A DNA stretch of 64,000 nucleotides from Clostridia bacterium. GTDB taxonomy: Bacteria; Bacillota; Clostridia; Christensenellales; Aristaeellaceae. The notes beneath the pieces were generated by a model. That model saw only the letters and a list, made by a program, of their open reading frames with translations, did not search any database and had not been told where the DNA came from. Shown piece by piece: positions 965 through 63,031 of this stretch. Where the stretch lies: positions 1 to 64,000 of the forward strand of contig JAFQHP010000007.1 in the NCBI GenBank assembly GCA_017397895.1, given 5' to 3'. A program made the position numbers and the translations under genes. Positions within the stretch are counted from its first letter, which is position 1. Each line of letters opens with the position of its first letter.

Positions 965-1738
965 GTGGCGCTTGCAAAGAATCGCTATATCGGGGAGATC
1001 ATCTGGACAGGAGATGTGGCAGAGGGGTCCTACCTGAACGAGATCCCGGCGGTGAAGCATTTGCGGAAAATGCAGCGGCTGGAATTGAAGGCCCCTGTCA
1101 CGTTTCTGGTGGGGGAGAACGGCACCGGCAAATCCACCCTGCTGGAGGCCGTTGCGGTGGCCGCCGGGTTTAATCCGGAGGGCGGCACCCGCAATTTTTC
1201 CTTTTCCACCCGGGCCACCCATTCCTCATTGCATGAATGCATCCGGCTTTCCAAATACGGCTTCCCCAAGGACGGCTTTTTCCTGCGGGCGGAAAGCTTT
1301 TACAACGTGGCCACCAATATTGACGAGATGGACGAAGCAGGGGGGCTTGGAGCACCGGTGATTCAAAGCTTTGGTGGCGTATCCCTGCATGAGCAAAGCC
1401 ACGGGGAAAGCTTTCTTTCCGTGGTGCTGCACCGCTTTGGCGGCAACGGCCTGTATATTCTGGACGAGCCGGAAGCGGCGCTGTCGCCCATGCGGCTGAT
1501 GACCCTGCTTTCTGCCATGGACCATCTGGTGAAGCAAAACAGCCAGTTCATCATTTCCACCCATTCGCCCATCCTGATGGCCTATCCCGGGGCGGAAATT
1601 CTGGAGCTGAGCGAAGGGGGCATCCGAAACGTTTCCTACCGGGAAACGGAGCATTATCAGGTAACCCGGCGCTTCCTGGAAAACCCGGAAAAGATGCTGC
1701 ATTATCTGCTGGATGATGAAGGAGGCAAGATATCATGA
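965..1738 (+). CDS. AAA-type ATPase of the RecF/SMC-like ABC class (COG3910-like)
   Basis: A 257-residue soluble single-domain ATPase. Walker A is GENGTGKST at about residues 50-58, the ABC-like signature SHGES at 145-149, Walker B ILDEPE with Asp167 and Glu168, and the switch histidine in STHSP at about 200. The order matches stand-alone ABC-ATPase-fold proteins annotated as predicted ATPases, whose role is unknown; there is no membrane or transport partner. The GTG at 965 is chosen because GGAGG at 952-956 lies eight bases before it and because the promoter at 890-918 overlaps the more upstream ATG. ATGs at 944 and 950 remain possible. The gene ends in a 4-base ATGA overlap with the VOC gene, so the two are translationally coupled. 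Confidence 0.8.
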   Translation: MALAKNRYIGEIIWTGDVAEGSYLNEIPAVKHLRKMQRLELKAPVTFLVGENGTGKSTLLEAVAVAAGFNPEGGTRNFSFSTRATHSSLHECIRLSKYGFPKDGFFLRAESFYNVATNIDEMDEAGGLGAPVIQSFGGVSLHEQSHGESFLSVVLHRFGGNGLYILDEPEAALSPMRLMTLLSAMDHLVKQNSQFIISTHSPILMAYPGAEILELSEGGIRNVSYRETEHYQVTRRFLENPEKMLHYLLDDEGGKIS

Positions 1739-2133
1739 TTGGCATTGGCATTTATGTAAAGGGAAGCCCGGAAGCAATCAGGCTGTATCAGGCGGCTTTC
1801 GGGCTGGAGCTTGGCTATCATGTATTGAACCGGGACGGCACCTTTTTCCATTCGGAGCTGAGCAGGAATGGGGAACCCTTCTGCTCTGTGGTGGAGGCAA
1901 AGGGGGATACTTATGCGCAGGTGCATCCCATTGAGCTTGGCGTGACCTTTGAAAACCGGTATGAACTGGAACAGGCCTTCCGGGTGCTTTCGGACGGCGG
2001 GAAGGTGGAGATGGAAATCGGGGAACTTCCCTGGAGCCCCTGCGCCGCCATGGTGCGGGACCGGTTTGGGGTGAAGTGGTTTTTATCCCTGCCCCAGCAT
2101 CAGCCCCAAGCGGGCTGGACACCGGAAACGTGA
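1735..2133 (+). CDS. VOC-superfamily (glyoxalase/PhnB-like) protein
   Basis: 132 residues with the beta-alpha-beta-beta-beta fold of vicinal oxygen chelate proteins. The N-terminus carries the IRLYQAAFGLELGY helix-strand typical of PhnB/YycE-like members, and the C-terminal module ends with RDRFGVKWFLSLP, close to the D-x-F-G-x-x-W signature of that group. Members include glyoxalases, antibiotic-binding proteins and many of unknown role; the substrate cannot be read from the sequence. The start overlaps the ATPase stop (ATGA), with a GAAGGAGG-type site just before it. The DUF1801 gene follows 26 bases later, so the three probably share a transcript. Confidence 0.75.
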   Translation: MIGIGIYVKGSPEAIRLYQAAFGLELGYHVLNRDGTFFHSELSRNGEPFCSVVEAKGDTYAQVHPIELGVTFENRYELEQAFRVLSDGGKVEMEIGELPWSPCAAMVRDRFGVKWFLSLPQHQPQAGWTPET

Positions 2134-2159
2134 CAAACAATCTTGCTGAGGAGACAACC

Positions 2160-2489
2160 ATGAACCAACGGATTGAAGCGTATCTGGAAAAATATCCAAA
2201 TGAGACGGCGGCAATGTACCGGCAGGTGCGGCAGCTGATTTATGAGAGTACAGAAAGCGAGCCCCTGGAAACAATGTGGGCCGCAATGCCCACGTATTCT
2301 GTGGGGGAGCGGTTTGTGCGGCTGATTTTATTCCGGGATCATCTGAATATCGAAGCAAAGGCAGCTGTTGCCCATCGGGAAGAATTGAAGGGATACAAAT
2401 TCACCCCCAAAGGGATGCTGCAGATTTATTTGAACCAGGAGATACCGGCGGATGTGCTGAAGCGGATTTTTGAAAAAACGCTGGGGTGA
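2160..2489 (+). CDS. DUF1801 domain protein (YdhG-like)
   Basis: 109 residues forming a DUF1801-like domain: an N-terminal helix (IEAYLEKYP), the METMWAAMPTY-like strand, a central strand (VRLILFRDHLNIEAKA), and a C-terminal FTPKGMLQIYLNQEIPADVL segment. Related proteins (YdhG, frataxin-like YdhG in Bacillus) have been linked to iron handling, but most are uncharacterised. Translation starts at ATG 2160 with GAGGAGA at 2147-2153. It is the third gene of the cluster begun by the ATPase and ends just before a bidirectional terminator. Confidence 0.75.
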   Translation: MNQRIEAYLEKYPNETAAMYRQVRQLIYESTESEPLETMWAAMPTYSVGERFVRLILFRDHLNIEAKAAVAHREELKGYKFTPKGMLQIYLNQEIPADVLKRIFEKTLG

Positions 2490-2505
2490 AGCATTTGGAA
2501 TGAAA

Positions 2506-2538
2506 AAAGGCGGGGCCTGACGGCTCCGCCTTTGTTGT
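2506..2538. terminator. Bidirectional terminator between convergent genes
   Basis: A 12-bp stem (2506-2517 with 2522-2533, one G-T wobble) has A-rich and T-rich flanks. It sits between the DUF1801 gene (plus) and the GH2 gene (minus) and can stop transcription from both sides. Confidence 0.75.
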
Positions 2539-2542
2539 TTGA

Positions 2543-5083
2543 TTAGGGTTCTTTGCCCATCCAGTGGAGGGCGGGGGTGAAATGGGGGTCGCAGGTGGAA
2601 GCAATAATCGTTTTGCTTTCGCCCGGCCACAGTTCAAAGTCGTTTTCGCTGTAGGTGGTGCCGTCCGGCTCGGCCAGATGGGCCATCCACACAAAGCGGG
2701 GGGCGGTGAGGGTCACTTCGTATTTGCCCTCTTCCAGGGGGCGGCTGAGGCACTGCACAGGCATATCCCCGGGGATCATATCCGCAAAGGGGGTGAAGAA
2801 ATACTTGGTTTCGTTGACGATCTTTCCATTCTTGATCAGCCGGGCGCGGAAAACGGCATCGGCAGGGTCAAAGGTGAGGACGGAAAGATCCACATCCGTC
2901 AGGCGGGCGGAGCCGTTTTGAGGCAGGCACACGTCCTGGCTGCCTTCCGTGAGGACACGGCCATCCAGGGTCATCATGGTCCATTCAAGGCGGGCGGGCC
3001 GATCTTCCAGGGTATCGTTCATGCCCCAGATTTCCAGCTTGCCGGCATCCGTTTTCCAGTGCTCCTTCCAGTGCACCCGGCCCTCGTCGTTTTGCACCTC
3101 ATAGCCTTTCACGCACAGCGCCAGGGGGGCCATGGCCTGTTTGAGGGCATAGTAGATGGGCTTGCGGCGCAGCGCATAATCGATCAGGGACCAGTTGTGC
3201 ACGCCGTAGCTGTCGGACAGTGTCCAGAACAAAAGCCCGGCGCAGGTGAATTTCTGCCGGCGGAATTCCTCATACATGTGCCGGGTGATCTCCGCCTGCA
3301 GGGCCTGGCTGCGCAGGATGAACTGCTGGGGAGACAATTCTTCGTCGCCGAAATACTGTTTTTCCATGCGGGAAAGCAGGGTATGGTCCTGGCAGGAGTT
3401 GGTATGATGCAGCCAGATGGGATCATCGGGGCGCATATGCTCCGCCGGGATACAGCCCAGCGCCGTTTCCATGGGCATGGCGCCCATGATGCCGAATTCG
3501 CTGAGGAACTTCACCTTGAACTCCACAAACCGCCACAAATCCAGGTAATGGGGGTGGCTGTCCACATGGGTCAATACCCAGATGTGCTGGTCGCCGTGGC
3601 GGCAGTCGGCCTGGTATTCGCCGCCGTGGGGGCTGCTTTGCCGGTACACCAGGCGGGGGCACATTTCCTGCACCAGGGAGGGCAGGATTTTTTCATAAAT
3701 ATCGCCGCCGTACCAGGGCAGAGAAGGCCGATGCTGCTTCTGGGAATGGTACATTTCCTGAATTTCATTGTTCCCCGCCCAGCCGATCAGGCTGGCATGC
3801 CGGCGCAGACGGCGGATGGCCTTGCGCGCTTCCAGGGTGATATCTTTCCGGAAGGCGGGCACATGCACGGGGTAATAGCCGCAGGCGTACATAAAATCGT
3901 GCCACACCATGATGCCCATCTCGTCGCAGGCGTTCATCAGCGCTTCCGATGCATACACGCCGCCGCCCCATACCCGCAGCATGTTCATATGCTCATCCCG
4001 GGCCAGGGCAATCAGCGCCCGTTCCTTTTCGGGGGTGATGCGGCCGGGCAGGCAGTCGCAGGGCACATGGTTGGCCCCCTTGCAGAATACCGGCACGCCG
4101 TTGAGATGGAACACAAAGCCGGTTTCGCCCGCTTCCATTTGCGGTTCCTGCAGGGAAATGGTGCGAAGGCCCATTAGCTGGGTGCGCACATCCACCTGAT
4201 CGCCCTGCTGGTTTGTGAGCGTTACTTCCACCCGGTACAGGTGGGCGTCGCCCAGCCCGTTGCACCACCACAGCCGGGCCTTGGGGATGGTGAAGGAAAG
4301 GGCGGTTTTTGCATTTTCCAGGGGCTGGCTGTGGCAAGCCACAGCGTTCCCGTCAGCGTCCCAAATGGTGCAGGACAGGGTGAGGGGAGTATCGGTTACG
4401 ATGCGGGTTTCCACGTCCACCGCCACCCGGCAGGGCATCCTTTCGGAAAGGGTGTCTTCCTCGGGCCGGGCGTACACATCTTCAATGGCCGCCTGGCGGC
4501 AGGCGGTCAGGTACACATCCTTCCAGATGCCGCAGGAGAAAAGCCACACCGTCCAGTCCCAGCCGTAGACGTACTGGGGCTTGCGCATCCACACCCGCCA
4601 GGGCTGTTCGTTGTTCCACATGGTGCCCATGTCTTCCAGGTCGTGGGTCTTGGCTTCCTGCAGGCCTTCATCAAGGCGCACCAGCAGGGTGTTTTCCCCG
4701 GGATGCAGGCAGGACGTCACATCAAAGGTAATTTCCACAAAGGCGTTGTTGTGCCGGCCAATTTTCCGGCCGTTGAGATAGATATCCGCTGTGCAGTCCA
4801 GCCCTTCAAAGGTGAGCTGCATGGAGGGGGCCAGATCGTCCTTTTCCAGCACAAAGGTGCGCCGGCACCAGAATTCCTTCTTCTCCATCCATGTGCAGTC
4901 CAGGCTGTTCATGGCATAAAGGGGTTCTTGAATGATGCCCGCTTCAATCAGCGGCGTGTGCACATCCCCCGGCACGGTATAGAGCAGGGAGGGGAGAGCA
5001 GAAAGCGCATCCGGTGCGCCCGTGCCGATATCGCACCAGGCCATGCTCCACCGGCCGTTCAAAGAAAGGGTGGTTGTTTTCAT
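2543..5083 (-). CDS. Glycoside hydrolase family 2, beta-mannosidase type
   Basis: An 846-residue cytoplasmic enzyme with no signal peptide. Domain order is a jelly-roll sugar-binding domain (about 1-195), an Ig-like domain (200-310), a TIM barrel (about 325-640) and C-terminal Ig-like domains. The acid/base is Glu440 in GWAGNNEIQ and the nucleophile Glu529 in FLSEFG. The GNNE form and the MNMLRVWGGGVY segment at 366-377 fit beta-mannosidases rather than beta-galactosidases. It should release mannose from the non-reducing end of imported manno-oligosaccharides or N-glycan cores. The start has GAGGATG about nine bases upstream, and an extended -10 (TGG-TATACT) lies at 5129-5137. Exact substrate within GH2 is an inference. 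Confidence 0.88.
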   Translation of the reverse strand: MKTTTLSLNGRWSMAWCDIGTGAPDALSALPSLLYTVPGDVHTPLIEAGIIQEPLYAMNSLDCTWMEKKEFWCRRTFVLEKDDLAPSMQLTFEGLDCTADIYLNGRKIGRHNNAFVEITFDVTSCLHPGENTLLVRLDEGLQEAKTHDLEDMGTMWNNEQPWRVWMRKPQYVYGWDWTVWLFSCGIWKDVYLTACRQAAIEDVYARPEEDTLSERMPCRVAVDVETRIVTDTPLTLSCTIWDADGNAVACHSQPLENAKTALSFTIPKARLWWCNGLGDAHLYRVEVTLTNQQGDQVDVRTQLMGLRTISLQEPQMEAGETGFVFHLNGVPVFCKGANHVPCDCLPGRITPEKERALIALARDEHMNMLRVWGGGVYASEALMNACDEMGIMVWHDFMYACGYYPVHVPAFRKDITLEARKAIRRLRRHASLIGWAGNNEIQEMYHSQKQHRPSLPWYGGDIYEKILPSLVQEMCPRLVYRQSSPHGGEYQADCRHGDQHIWVLTHVDSHPHYLDLWRFVEFKVKFLSEFGIMGAMPMETALGCIPAEHMRPDDPIWLHHTNSCQDHTLLSRMEKQYFGDEELSPQQFILRSQALQAEITRHMYEEFRRQKFTCAGLLFWTLSDSYGVHNWSLIDYALRRKPIYYALKQAMAPLALCVKGYEVQNDEGRVHWKEHWKTDAGKLEIWGMNDTLEDRPARLEWTMMTLDGRVLTEGSQDVCLPQNGSARLTDVDLSVLTFDPADAVFRARLIKNGKIVNETKYFFTPFADMIPGDMPVQCLSRPLEEGKYEVTLTAPRFVWMAHLAEPDGTTYSENDFELWPGESKTIIASTCDPHFTPALHWMGKEP

Positions 5084-59766: not shown

Positions 59767-59832
59767 ATCTGTAATATATTTGTTCACATTGGCTTTGATT
59801 GTGGATTATAGTGCTTTTATATGGAGGAACCG

Positions 59833-60888
59833 ATGTATACCAGGGAACGATTATTGAAGTATCCGTACTTTGAGGAAGTGTTCCGTTCCGGCGATGGGAG
59901 CAATGTGGTGGATTCGCTGACAGGGCTCATTTCCAGGCAGCACATGATGGGCTTCATCCAGCATCTTATAAAGTGCAGGATTCCCTTCACGCTGGCGCTG
60001 ATGGATCTTGATAATTTCAAGTTTATCAACGATACATACGGCCACAAGATTGGCGACGGTGTGCTGGCGGGATTATCCAATGACCTGGAACGATACCTGT
60101 CGGATTACGGTGTTGCGGGCAGATTTGGCGGCGATGAGTTTCTGATTGTCAATTTCAGGGACCATGCCTATGATGAAATCAAGGCGTTTTTTGCCGGCCT
60201 GTACTCCGATTATAATGTTCTGCGGAAGAACATTGATCTGGGTGAGTGTGAACCCTTTGTCACGGGAACCATCGGCAGTGCTGTTTTTCCGGAGGACGCT
60301 CAGGATTATACCGCTCTGTTCAGCCTGGTGGACAAGGCCCTGTACCGGGGTAAAACAAAGGGCAGAAACTGCTACATCATCTATGTGGAAGAAAAGCATA
60401 AGGATATATCTATTCAGCAATTGGCAGCCAGGAGCATCTATACCATCTTTCATGAATTATCCTGTGGCTTCGACTCCTGTTCCAGATTATCGGACAAGCT
60501 GAAGGCCCTGCATGATATTCTGGCCGATGATATGCGGATAACGGATCTGTATTATGTGGGCCGGGACAATCAATTCCGGAATGTCAGCTGCGGGGTTTCC
60601 CTGGGCGAAGTGAAGGATCTGGATCGGCTGATCAGGGATGATATCTATACCACCAATGAAATAAAGCATATTGAGCCCCAATCTCCCAGTATGTATGCCT
60701 TGTGCCGGAAAAGGGAGTTTGAAACGGTATTGGTGATCCGCATTGGCATACAGGACGAAACCTTTGGCTATCTTGTGTGTGCGGAGCCCAAAACCCTGCG
60801 CATCTGGCAGGACGATGAGTATGCCATCATGTTCTTTGCGGCCAGAATGCTGGCGGTGTATGTGCAGGCATCCGGGGAAAAGATATAG
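59833..60888 (+). CDS. Diguanylate cyclase (GGDEF) with C-terminal GAF-like domain
   Basis: 351 residues, cytoplasmic. The GGDEF domain lies at the N-terminus (about 20-185): DSLTGLISRQ, metal-binding ALMDLDNFKFINDTYGH and an intact RFGGDEF (motif 99-103). No RxxD inhibitory site precedes the motif, so product inhibition there is unlikely. The C-terminal half (about 205-351) resembles a GAF-type sensor. Sensor domains usually lie before GGDEF, so the order is reversed. It should make cyclic di-GMP. ATG 59833 is chosen over 59821 because GGAGG at 59823-59827 lies five bases before it. Confidence 0.88.
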   Translation: MYTRERLLKYPYFEEVFRSGDGSNVVDSLTGLISRQHMMGFIQHLIKCRIPFTLALMDLDNFKFINDTYGHKIGDGVLAGLSNDLERYLSDYGVAGRFGGDEFLIVNFRDHAYDEIKAFFAGLYSDYNVLRKNIDLGECEPFVTGTIGSAVFPEDAQDYTALFSLVDKALYRGKTKGRNCYIIYVEEKHKDISIQQLAARSIYTIFHELSCGFDSCSRLSDKLKALHDILADDMRITDLYYVGRDNQFRNVSCGVSLGEVKDLDRLIRDDIYTTNEIKHIEPQSPSMYALCRKREFETVLVIRIGIQDETFGYLVCAEPKTLRIWQDDEYAIMFFAARMLAVYVQASGEKI

Positions 60889-60918
60889 CATTTGCAAGCC
60901 TTGGGGAAATGTAAAGAC

Positions 60919-61133
60919 AACAAAAAACCACCCATCAAGGGTGGTTTCTTTCTGGTGGGATTCGTAGGACTTGAACCTATGTCCGCAATTCGCATTAGGG
61001 TTTCCGCCTTCGCTTTCGCTTGCCGGAAACCCTTTGCTCATTGGGCCTTTGCCTCGCTTCATCACCCACTGGGTGCGCTCGGCTCCGCCCCCCAACGATC
61101 GTGGGGACCATGGTTCGGCGTCCTCCAATCCAC
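60919..61133 (-). ncRNA. Candidate structured RNA, unit A
   Basis: Tandem partner of unit B with the same hairpins and its own terminator (60925-60947 followed by six Ts on the minus strand). Paired differences from B keep the helices. It lies downstream of the cyclase gene's 3' end in the opposite direction, so the terminator may also serve that gene. Confidence 0.4.
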
Positions 61134-61387
61134 ACAAAAAAACCACTCACAAGGAGTGGTTTCTTCCTGGTGGGATTCGTAGGACTTGAACCTATGTCCG
61201 CAATTCGCAATAGGATTTCCGCCTTCGCTTTCGCTTGCCGGAAATCCTTTGCTCATTGGGCCTTTGCCTCGCTTCATCACCCACTGGGTGCGCTCGGCTC
61301 CGGCCCCCCACGATCGTGGGGACCATGGTTCGGCGTCCTCCAATCCGCACAAAGAAACCACCCACAAGGGGTGGTTTCTTTCTGGTG
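60925..61387 (-). repeat. Two tandem 215-bp structured repeats plus a truncated third copy
   Basis: Unit A (60925-61139) and unit B (61140-61354) have exactly the same length and about 15 differences; the first 33 bases of a third copy follow (61355-61387). Read on the minus strand, each unit holds several hairpins, a tRNA-like 3' end with CCA (60953-60984 and 61168-61199) and a terminator (60925-60947, 61140-61162). In the long hairpin (60997-61006 with 61024-61033; 61212-61221 with 61239-61248) GGG/CCC in A is GGA/TCC in B. In the terminator stem CCC/GGG is CTC/GAG. Both are compensatory changes. Confidence 0.85.
61134..61349 (-). ncRNA. Candidate structured RNA, unit B
   Basis: Minus-strand RNA from just after the hairpin at 61355-61377 to the T tract of the hairpin at 61140-61162. 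It contains a CCCCAC-GATC-GTGGGG hairpin, a CACCC-AGT-GGGTG hairpin, the long covarying hairpin with an inner GCGAAAGC tetraloop stem, and a tRNA T-arm plus CCA end. I know no RNA family with this plan. No promoter box is clear, so transcription is inferred from the terminator and the conserved pairing. Confidence 0.4.
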
Positions 61388-61456
61388 CTGTACCTGTATT
61401 TTGATGCAATGCCAGTTTTTGAAACTTGGTGTTTGAGCATTTAATATGTCGTAGAA

Positions 61457-61705
61457 TTACCCGAACCACTTTTCATACATACTTTTCAGCAACTCATCAC
61501 TTAGTGTGACAGTTGAATCTGGAAGCACTGCATCAACTCCACAGTATGGACAGAACGCAGTCCGCGCGTCGTTATCATAAACCCATTCGGCGACAGCGCT
61601 GCTATCAAAGATCTTCCTACAATAGAAACATCCGCAACTTTTGCTTGTCAGAACTGCATGTTCATTATCGAATGACAGCACGTGAATTTGATCCATATCA
61701 GCCAT
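61457..61705 (-). CDS. Small zinc-ribbon-like cytoplasmic protein
   Basis: 82 residues. Two Cys pairs, CGCFYC and FCPYC about 28 residues apart, make a zinc-ribbon-like site; VDAVLPDS follows the second pair as in a family of short cytoplasmic proteins of unknown role. The ATG at 61705 is preferred because GGAG lies nine bases before it; a longer form could start at 61741. Codons are AT-richer than the window average. It lies between the structured repeats and tRNA-Val. Confidence 0.6.
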   Translation of the reverse strand: MADMDQIHVLSFDNEHAVLTSKSCGCFYCRKIFDSSAVAEWVYDNDARTAFCPYCGVDAVLPDSTVTLSDELLKSMYEKWFG

Positions 61706-61749
61706 TTTTTCAGTCTCCATCATTAGGTGAAAATTCTGCAAGAATAAAT

Positions 61750-61788
61750 AAAAAATGAACTCTAACTTCGTAACAAAGTCAGAGTTCA
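61750..61788 (-). terminator. Terminator of tRNA-Val
   Basis: A 13-bp stem (61756-61768 with 61776-61788, one wobble) followed on the minus strand by six Ts, just past the tRNA 3' end. Confidence 0.8.
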
Positions 61789-61792
61789 GAGG

Positions 61793-61869
61793 TGGTGGGA
61801 TTAGTAGGACTCGAACCTATGACCCCCACGATGTCAACGTGGTGCTCTAACCAACTGAGCTATAATCCC
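61793..61869 (-). tRNA. tRNA-Val (GAC)
   Basis: 77 bases with encoded CCA. Acceptor stem GGGATTA/TAATCCC (7 bp), D arm GCTC/GAGC, anticodon stem CCACG/CGTGG with loop TTGACAT (anticodon GAC at 61833-61835), and T loop TTCGAGT. The T stem has an A-C mismatch at its base. All other elements are regular. Confidence 0.93.
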
Positions 61870-62033: not shown

Positions 62034-62999
62034 TTAAGCCTTGCCGTTGCAGCCCAGAACGTTCACGATCTTGTGCTGTACCATTTCACCCAGGGCCTTG
62101 CGGGCGTCGGTGAGGTACTGACGGGGGTCAAAGTGATCGGGATGTTCCATCATGTGCTTGCGGATCATGGCAGTGAAGGAGATGCGCAGGTCGCTGTCGA
62201 TGTTGATTTTGCAGACGGCCATGGAGGCAGCCTTGCGCAGCTGTTCTTCGGGGATACCCACGGCGTCGGGCATTTTGCCGCCGTTTTCGTTGATGATCTT
62301 CACGAAATCCTGGGGCACGGAGGAAGCGCCGTGCAGCACGATGGGGAAGCCGGGCAGACGCTTGGACACTTCGTCCAGAATGTCGAAGCGCAGGGGCGGG
62401 GGCACCAGGATGCCCTTTTCGTTGCGGGTGCACTGAGCGGCGGTGAACTTGTAAGCGCCGTGGCTGGTGCCGATGGCGATGGCCAGGGAGTCGCAGCCGG
62501 TGCGGGTGGCGAATTCTTCCACTTCTTCGGGACGGGTGTAGCTGGAATCTTCGGCGGAAACCTTCACATCGTCTTCCACGCCGGCCAGACGGCCCAGTTC
62601 GCCTTCTACGGTGACGCCGCGGTCATGAGCGTAATCCACAACCTTCTTGGTCAGGGCGATGTTGTCTTCGAAGCTGAGGTGGCTGCCGTCGATCATGACG
62701 GAGGTGAAGCCGCCGTCAATGCAGCTCTTGCAGGTTTCAAAGTCGGGGCCATGGTCCAGGTGCAGGGCGATGGGCAGGCCGGTTTCCTGAACGGCAGCTT
62801 CCACCATCTTCACCAGGTATGTATGGTTGGCATAGGCGCGGGCGCCCTTGCTCACCTGCAGGATAACAGGAGCGTTCACGGCCTTGGCGGCTTCGGTGAT
62901 GCCCTGTACGATTTCCATGTTGTTTACGTTGAAAGCGCCAACGGCATAGCCGCCTTCATAAGCTTTCCGGAACATTTCCTTGGTGTTGACTAAAGGCAT
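62034..62999 (-). CDS. fba: Class II fructose-bisphosphate aldolase
   Basis: 321 residues. Zinc ligands are His83 (LDHGPD), His180 (GTSHGAY) and His223 (VLHGASS), with catalytic Asp82 and Glu134 in VEGELG. GAFNVNN at 21-27 and the C-terminal DPRQYLTDAR are typical of the class. It splits fructose-1,6-bisphosphate in glycolysis and works in reverse in gluconeogenesis. The ATG at 62999 is chosen because AGGAGG ends nine bases before it; the ATG at 63008 abuts the site. It is a single-gene unit with a TATAAT at 63032-63037. Confidence 0.93.
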   Translation of the reverse strand: MPLVNTKEMFRKAYEGGYAVGAFNVNNMEIVQGITEAAKAVNAPVILQVSKGARAYANHTYLVKMVEAAVQETGLPIALHLDHGPDFETCKSCIDGGFTSVMIDGSHLSFEDNIALTKKVVDYAHDRGVTVEGELGRLAGVEDDVKVSAEDSSYTRPEEVEEFATRTGCDSLAIAIGTSHGAYKFTAAQCTRNEKGILVPPPLRFDILDEVSKRLPGFPIVLHGASSVPQDFVKIINENGGKMPDAVGIPEEQLRKAASMAVCKINIDSDLRISFTAMIRKHMMEHPDHFDPRQYLTDARKALGEMVQHKIVNVLGCNGKA

Positions 63000-63031
63000 A
63001 ATTTTCATCCTCCTTTATTTTGTCCTGAAAT

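Follow-up and report, generated by a model that had tools for sequence, protein, structure and literature searches.

A dispersed two-hairpin DNA repeat nested in tandem units derived from the end of a tRNA-Val gene in Clostridia

We analysed a window of 64,000 nucleotides (positions 1 to 64,000 of the forward strand of contig JAFQHP010000007.1, assembly GCA_017397895.1) from a Clostridia bacterium of the family Aristaeellaceae. The window contains a tandem array on the minus strand, located between a gene encoding a GGDEF-domain protein (59821-60888, plus strand) and an ORF of 94 amino acids (61457-61741, minus strand), for which no Pfam match was found. Beyond this ORF lie a tRNA-Val gene (61793-61869, minus strand) and the gene of a class II fructose-bisphosphate aldolase (62034-63008, minus strand). 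A preliminary description of the locus had reported two tandem units of 215 bp and the start of a third one, and this arrangement is indeed present: the two complete units are spaced at exactly 215 bp and are 94% identical, and the third (33-36 bp) ends at position 61387. The individual features are as follows:

60917-61131, minus strand: unit 1, 215 bp, composed of left arm, core, tRNA-Val 3' half and terminator
61132-61346, minus strand: unit 2, 215 bp, 94% identical to unit 1
61349-61387, minus strand: upstream partial third unit, comprising only the last bases of the tRNA 3' end (CACCAG) and the terminator
60981-61095, minus strand: core of unit 1, a pair of adjoining hairpins in which internal G-A mismatches are conserved (covariance model match, 106.6 bits)
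61196-61310, minus strand: core of unit 2 (covariance model match, 114.9 bits)
61094-61131, minus strand: left arm of unit 1, the tRNA-Val 3' half in inverted, degenerate form (none of 2000 shuffles aligned as well to the reverse complement of that half; the 5' half gave no match)
61309-61346, minus strand: left arm of unit 2, likewise the tRNA-Val 3' half in inverted, degenerate form
60953-60984, minus strand: direct copy of the tRNA-Val 3' half in unit 1 (T arm, 3' strand of the acceptor stem, CCA), 91% identical to 61793-61824
61168-61199, minus strand: direct copy of the tRNA-Val 3' half in unit 2
60922-60950, minus strand: terminator of unit 1, a copy of the tRNA-Val terminator present in G016 and G008
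61137-61165, minus strand: terminator of unit 2, CTC/GAG variant
61793-61869, minus strand: tRNA-Val (GAC), the source of the arms (ARAGORN and Rfam)

The region between the tRNA-Val gene and the array (61388-61792) comprises approximately 400 bp, carries the 94-amino-acid ORF, which is rich in paired cysteines, and is absent from the related genome G016; the presence of CACCA at both of its ends suggests that a short segment was inserted at the 3' end of the tRNA. Mechanically predicted ORFs that run over the units on both strands (60892-61469; e.g. ...CGHRFKSYESHQ) arise from the repeat and the end of the tRNA, and may become annotated as hypothetical proteins.

Read on the minus strand, the 215-bp unit is a composite of an inverted tRNA-Val 3' half, a two-hairpin core, a direct tRNA-Val 3' half and the terminator of the tRNA. 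The 3' end of the unit matches the tRNA-Val gene of the window (61793-61869) at 91% over 32 nt, and in the relatives G016 and G008 the same intrinsic terminator follows the tRNA-Val gene. The "tRNA-like 3' end" of the preliminary description is a true copy of the 3' half of the neighbouring gene, and the "own terminator", although carried by each unit, is a copy of the end of that gene. In all eight copies tested, the left arm corresponds to the reverse complement of the tRNA 3' half, each aligning better than any of 2000 shuffles, and none of these eight arms aligns to the tRNA 5' half. A tRNA-like acceptor pairing of the two ends of the unit was rejected on the basis of these alignments; ARAGORN called no tRNA in the units, which lack the 5' half of a cloverleaf.

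The same tRNA-Val fold-back was also found in genera g7, g8 and g34. At loci L003 and L032 (G000:C59), situated behind a tRNA-Val (CAC) gene, the T arm and acceptor end resemble those of another tRNA (CCGGGTTCGAGTCCGGCCTCCGGCA) and the left arm is semi-complementary, a sign that the fold-back may have passed from one tRNA gene to another.

The core, of approximately 105-115 nt, lies between the arms and consists of two adjacent hairpins (GGGCC...GGCCC and AAT...ATT), whose internal G-A mismatches are conserved; different families also share the loops and the mismatch motifs that lie outside the stems. Its ends (GGGCC... and ...AATTG) are not complementary, i.e. there are no terminal inverted repeats. 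The GNRA-like loop noted earlier occurs as GAAA, GGAA, GGCA and other variants, and is thus not a fixed character of the family.

The units are strongly structured, as had been claimed, with folding far more stable than that of dinucleotide shuffles (z -8.6 and -6.9). Between units 1 and 2, in the minus-strand reading, there are 13 differences, four of which form the two paired substitutions reported previously: GGG/CCC versus GGA/TCC in the long hairpin (unit positions 102 G>A with 132 C>T) and CCC/GGG versus CTC/GAG in the terminator (192 C>T with 200 G>A). The paired change in the terminator is not always kept, as the matching terminator of G016 reads CTC/GAA. Selection on RNA is not required to account for paired substitutions, because template switching at inverted repeats can produce them in one step (PMC8794818).

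A covariance model built from 12 copies of the core was used to search related genomes and, in support of the preliminary description, it revealed homologues with many paired substitutions in many of them. The search detected six copies of the core in the genome of the window, 28 in G018, 12 in G001, 11 in G002 and 10 in G027. The core is present in 86 of 200 genomes of the family (28 of 50 genera) and in 27 of 297 genomes sampled from the order, other families included. Named records bearing the motif are metagenome-assembled genomes of uncultured Clostridia, Clostridiales and Christensenellaceae, including some from goat, sheep and rumen samples. Identical cores occur at different loci within one genome (the copies of G018 are partly identical), many copies lie near contig ends, and the orientation of the genes around 40 copies is mixed, with no single pattern.

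The claim that the sequence is undescribed has stood as regards Rfam: the array reached the gathering score of no family, tRNA, tmRNA and HEARO included. In the window only the tRNA-Val gene scored, the best sub-threshold match of the array being asX2 (26.9 of 70 bits), and at the core-bearing loci only tRNA genes exceeded the threshold. As Rfam relatives, asX2, the rnk leader and RNAI were all rejected, their scores being far below threshold. Carriage by phages, plasmids or viral contigs was likewise rejected after no match was found in phage, plasmid and viral collections. Selection for a reading frame in the core was set aside; reverse-strand frames are open more often than in simple shuffles, which are a weak control.

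The core was found in three settings, namely the tRNA-Val fold-back, larger composite repeats with multiple hairpins, and the inside of a protein gene, and for each of them sites without it were identified. At the orthologous locus of the aldolase gene (fba), tRNA-Val and GGDEF genes units are absent from G008, while G016 has two and G012, whose contig ends there, has at least two. Upstream of a gene which we take, by eye from its sequence, to be ssb, a composite repeat lacks the core in G016 and G008 and contains it in G000:C40. A protein gene of G003 and G007 carries the core as an in-frame insertion of 102 bp (34 codons), and the same place is empty in six relatives (G004, G005, G010, G015, G021 and G025). 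Judged by eye, the interrupted protein may be a peptide-synthetase condensation domain.

Filled and empty composites differ consistently beside the core junction (AGC>TTC), and in G018 a small hairpin is replaced by the core. Because the filled copies share these flank changes, many of them arose by the copying of whole core-bearing composites, not by fresh insertion of the core; independent insertion into each composite repeat, as the sole route, was rejected on the same ground. Repeats of GAGG or AGG, which may be target-site duplications, occur at some core junctions, where differences in the flanks blur the ends. The pattern AATCCGCAG...CGAG, a marker of one composite type, occurs about 60 times in each of G018 and G002, and many composites have no core.

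One composite repeat of G018 and G002 (L188-L207) spans approximately 250-300 bp and contains hairpins ATGAAGGGGC..GCCCCTTCAT, a GC-rich hairpin and a long AT-rich hairpin; with about 60 copies per genome it is commoner than the core, and its stems differ by paired changes from one species to another. Beside a composite, at positions 664-738 of L088 (G000:C40), lies another short repeat, unrelated to it, with dozens of matches in G008 and G016.

The covariation within the core was examined in three sets of copies. It affects 20 of 33 pairs among the 12 copies and 28 of 33 among 76 distinct copies, and in 81 distinct diverse copies 31 of the 33 pairs have changed on both sides; the covariation score of this last set was 0.63, whereas shuffles gave 0.17 and slid controls 0.09 or less. 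Yet the pairs occur in states quite different from those of an RNA, in counts that ignore relatedness throughout. In the diverse set G-U and A-C account for 1.8% and 1.1% of pairs, and G-U is slightly above A-C (47 versus 28, p 0.04, relatedness again ignored), while a genus-heavy set gave 26 G-U versus 31 A-C cells. One procedure (MAFFT with RNAalifold) yielded 1.5% G-U and 0.8% A-C for the element, versus 20.8% and 2.6% for the SRP RNA of 13 genomes of the same family; for 20 tRNAs the G-U share was 5.3%, obtained with a tool that draws no A-C pairs. Since selection on a one-strand RNA predicts many G-U and few A-C pairs, these states are not RNA-like. The combination of strong covariation and near-absent wobble pairs fits the maintenance of a DNA hairpin, and not the folding of one RNA strand.

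Considering these data together, we think it probable that the array represents a nested DNA repeat with a non-autonomous mobile two-hairpin core at its heart, the arms of which are kept complementary as DNA. The core family, which had previously escaped curation, is best read as one of the structured mobile interspersed repeats, like REPIN, BOX and the Rickettsia palindromic elements. The core of about 105-115 bp, with its two adjacent hairpins, would spread as DNA through this Clostridia family and order; we infer that mobility is the cause of its dispersal and that the enzyme responsible acts in trans. In the window, the tRNA-Val 3' half forms an inverted duplication whose right arm holds a copy of the core, and the resulting segment (core, tRNA 3' half and terminator) may then have given rise to the tandem array via recombination between repeats of about 70 bp, each comprising the tRNA 3' end and terminator; this recombinational origin and the order of the steps are the most plausible reconstruction. 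The complementarity of the arms could be kept in two ways: the mobilising machinery may recognise a single-stranded or cruciform hairpin or, alternatively, hairpin-templated copying may rewrite both arms together.

A candidate for the mobilising enzyme, Y1_Tnp (PF01797), was found in 11 of 37 genomes, and in none of G018 (28 cores), G012, G016 and G007. Mobilisation by RAYT/TnpA was therefore rejected, as the presence of PF01797 does not track copy number. Another observation that speaks against the preferred reading is the recurrence of the tRNA-Val fold-back in four genera, which could reflect a host function. The lack of terminal inverted repeats, the blurred ends of any target-site duplications, the copying of whole composites and the slight excess of G-U in the diverse set also count against it.

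It is also conceivable, although in our opinion unlikely, that the repeat is entirely passive, owing its palindromes and their correction to template switching in the course of replication, and its copies to ordinary recombination, with neither an enzyme nor a function. Templated correction in one step gives paired changes without wobble intermediates (mechanism in PMC8794818), and a snap-back event would produce just such a left arm, with the tRNA 3' half in inverted form. However, the correction of stems does not explain why loops and mismatch motifs outside them are conserved across families, and the clean insertion of 102 bp into a gene at a new place is a further argument against such passivity.

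The preliminary description favoured a non-coding RNA that is structured and functional, is made from the minus strand and stops at its own terminator. The very strong covariation, the conserved G-A mismatch motifs and loop bases, the strong folding with a terminator in each unit, and the slight surplus of G-U relative to A-C among the diverse copies are all consistent with this proposal. Yet what was found is a dispersed multi-copy repeat with a patchy distribution, with empty orthologous sites, an in-frame insertion in a protein gene and a G-U share far below that of SRP RNA. Moreover, the flanking genes show mixed orientation, and promoter-like sites at the array do not exceed chance expectation. 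A structured RNA gene is therefore improbable.

Some tRNA-Val 3' halves starting in the anticodon loop are joined to foreign DNA (L028, G001:C24, positions 1500-3059; L031, G001:C25; L008, G026:C2; L226, G131:C50) and have the appearance of scars left where integrative elements attached; G001:C24 also has a tyrosine integrase gene (PF00589) immediately beyond the repeat unit. We consider it very improbable that the unit is a folded single-stranded DNA cassette, whose paired arms rebuild the double-stranded tRNA-Val end as an attachment site for a tRNA-Val-specific tyrosine integrase acting in trans, the tandem units being a cassette array: in 8/8 copies and in four genera the arms repeat the tRNA end in inverted orientation, the tandem units are exact and vary in number at the orthologous locus, and one unit adjoins an integrase gene (G001), but the core also moves without tRNA arms, homologous recombination suffices for the gain or loss of tandem units, and the crossover of integrative elements here seems to fall within the anticodon loop, which the right arm of the unit does not include. 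If true, this would be an integron-like principle operating at a tRNA gene with no gene cargo.

The nested DNA repeat proposed here adds a previously uncurated family, abundant and patchily distributed, to the genomes of a large order of uncultured gut Clostridia. Its architecture is nested, with the core residing inside composite repeats, inside duplicated tRNA-Val ends and inside a protein gene. It should also be regarded as a warning, since covariation of this strength could be mistaken for proof of a novel RNA, yet the states of the base pairs are unfit for one. For this reason, counts of G-U versus A-C pairs should accompany covariation tests on multi-copy sequences. When overlooked, the repeat may be mistaken for RNA families or small proteins that do not exist, and may break assemblies.

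Several known systems resemble the core or its unit in part. In the attC sites of integrons and the folded site of the CTX phage, imperfect inverted arms rebuild a double-stranded site when one strand folds, and integron cassettes form tandem arrays. The units described here share the tandem order and have imperfect inverted arms that would rebuild such a site, but by eye they do not conform to the attC consensus, and the core spreads without the arms. Compared by description only, the core is like the stem-loop families of a survey of 40 genomes (92 families sharing a predicted structure, mostly intergenic; PMC2267715) in being repeated, in its shared predicted structure and in its mostly intergenic location. 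The BOX, RUP and SPRITE elements of pneumococcus are interspersed and strongly structured, were judged parasitic by their describers and sometimes form reading frames (PMC3049150); again by description only, the core differs from them in its hosts, its ties to tRNA-Val ends and its conserved G-A mismatch helices.

The mode of life of the core, as judged from the in-frame insertion of 34 codons in G003 and G007 at a site empty in six relatives, is like that of the Rickettsia palindromic elements, which are of approximately 105-146 bp, palindromic, and located between genes, in frame within protein genes and also in RNA genes (PMC2229807). Those elements, however, occur in Rickettsia and have terminal inverted repeats, which the core lacks, and a single in-frame case of the core has been found so far. 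The absence of terminal inverted repeats also separates it from MITEs. REP and REPIN sequences with RAYT transposases are small, non-autonomous, extragenic repeats of many copies, a REPIN being an inverted doublet of one REP with a cognate Y1 transposase (PMC3116915, PMC2817692). The core is similarly small, non-autonomous, extragenic and numerous, and is a two-hairpin unit as well, but its two hairpins differ in sequence (by eye on alignments) and PF01797 is absent from the genome with the most copies (G018). We have filed the core as a new repeat family, which misses the REPIN features tested (the cognate Y1 transposase and the inverted doublet) and the terminal inverted repeats of MITEs.
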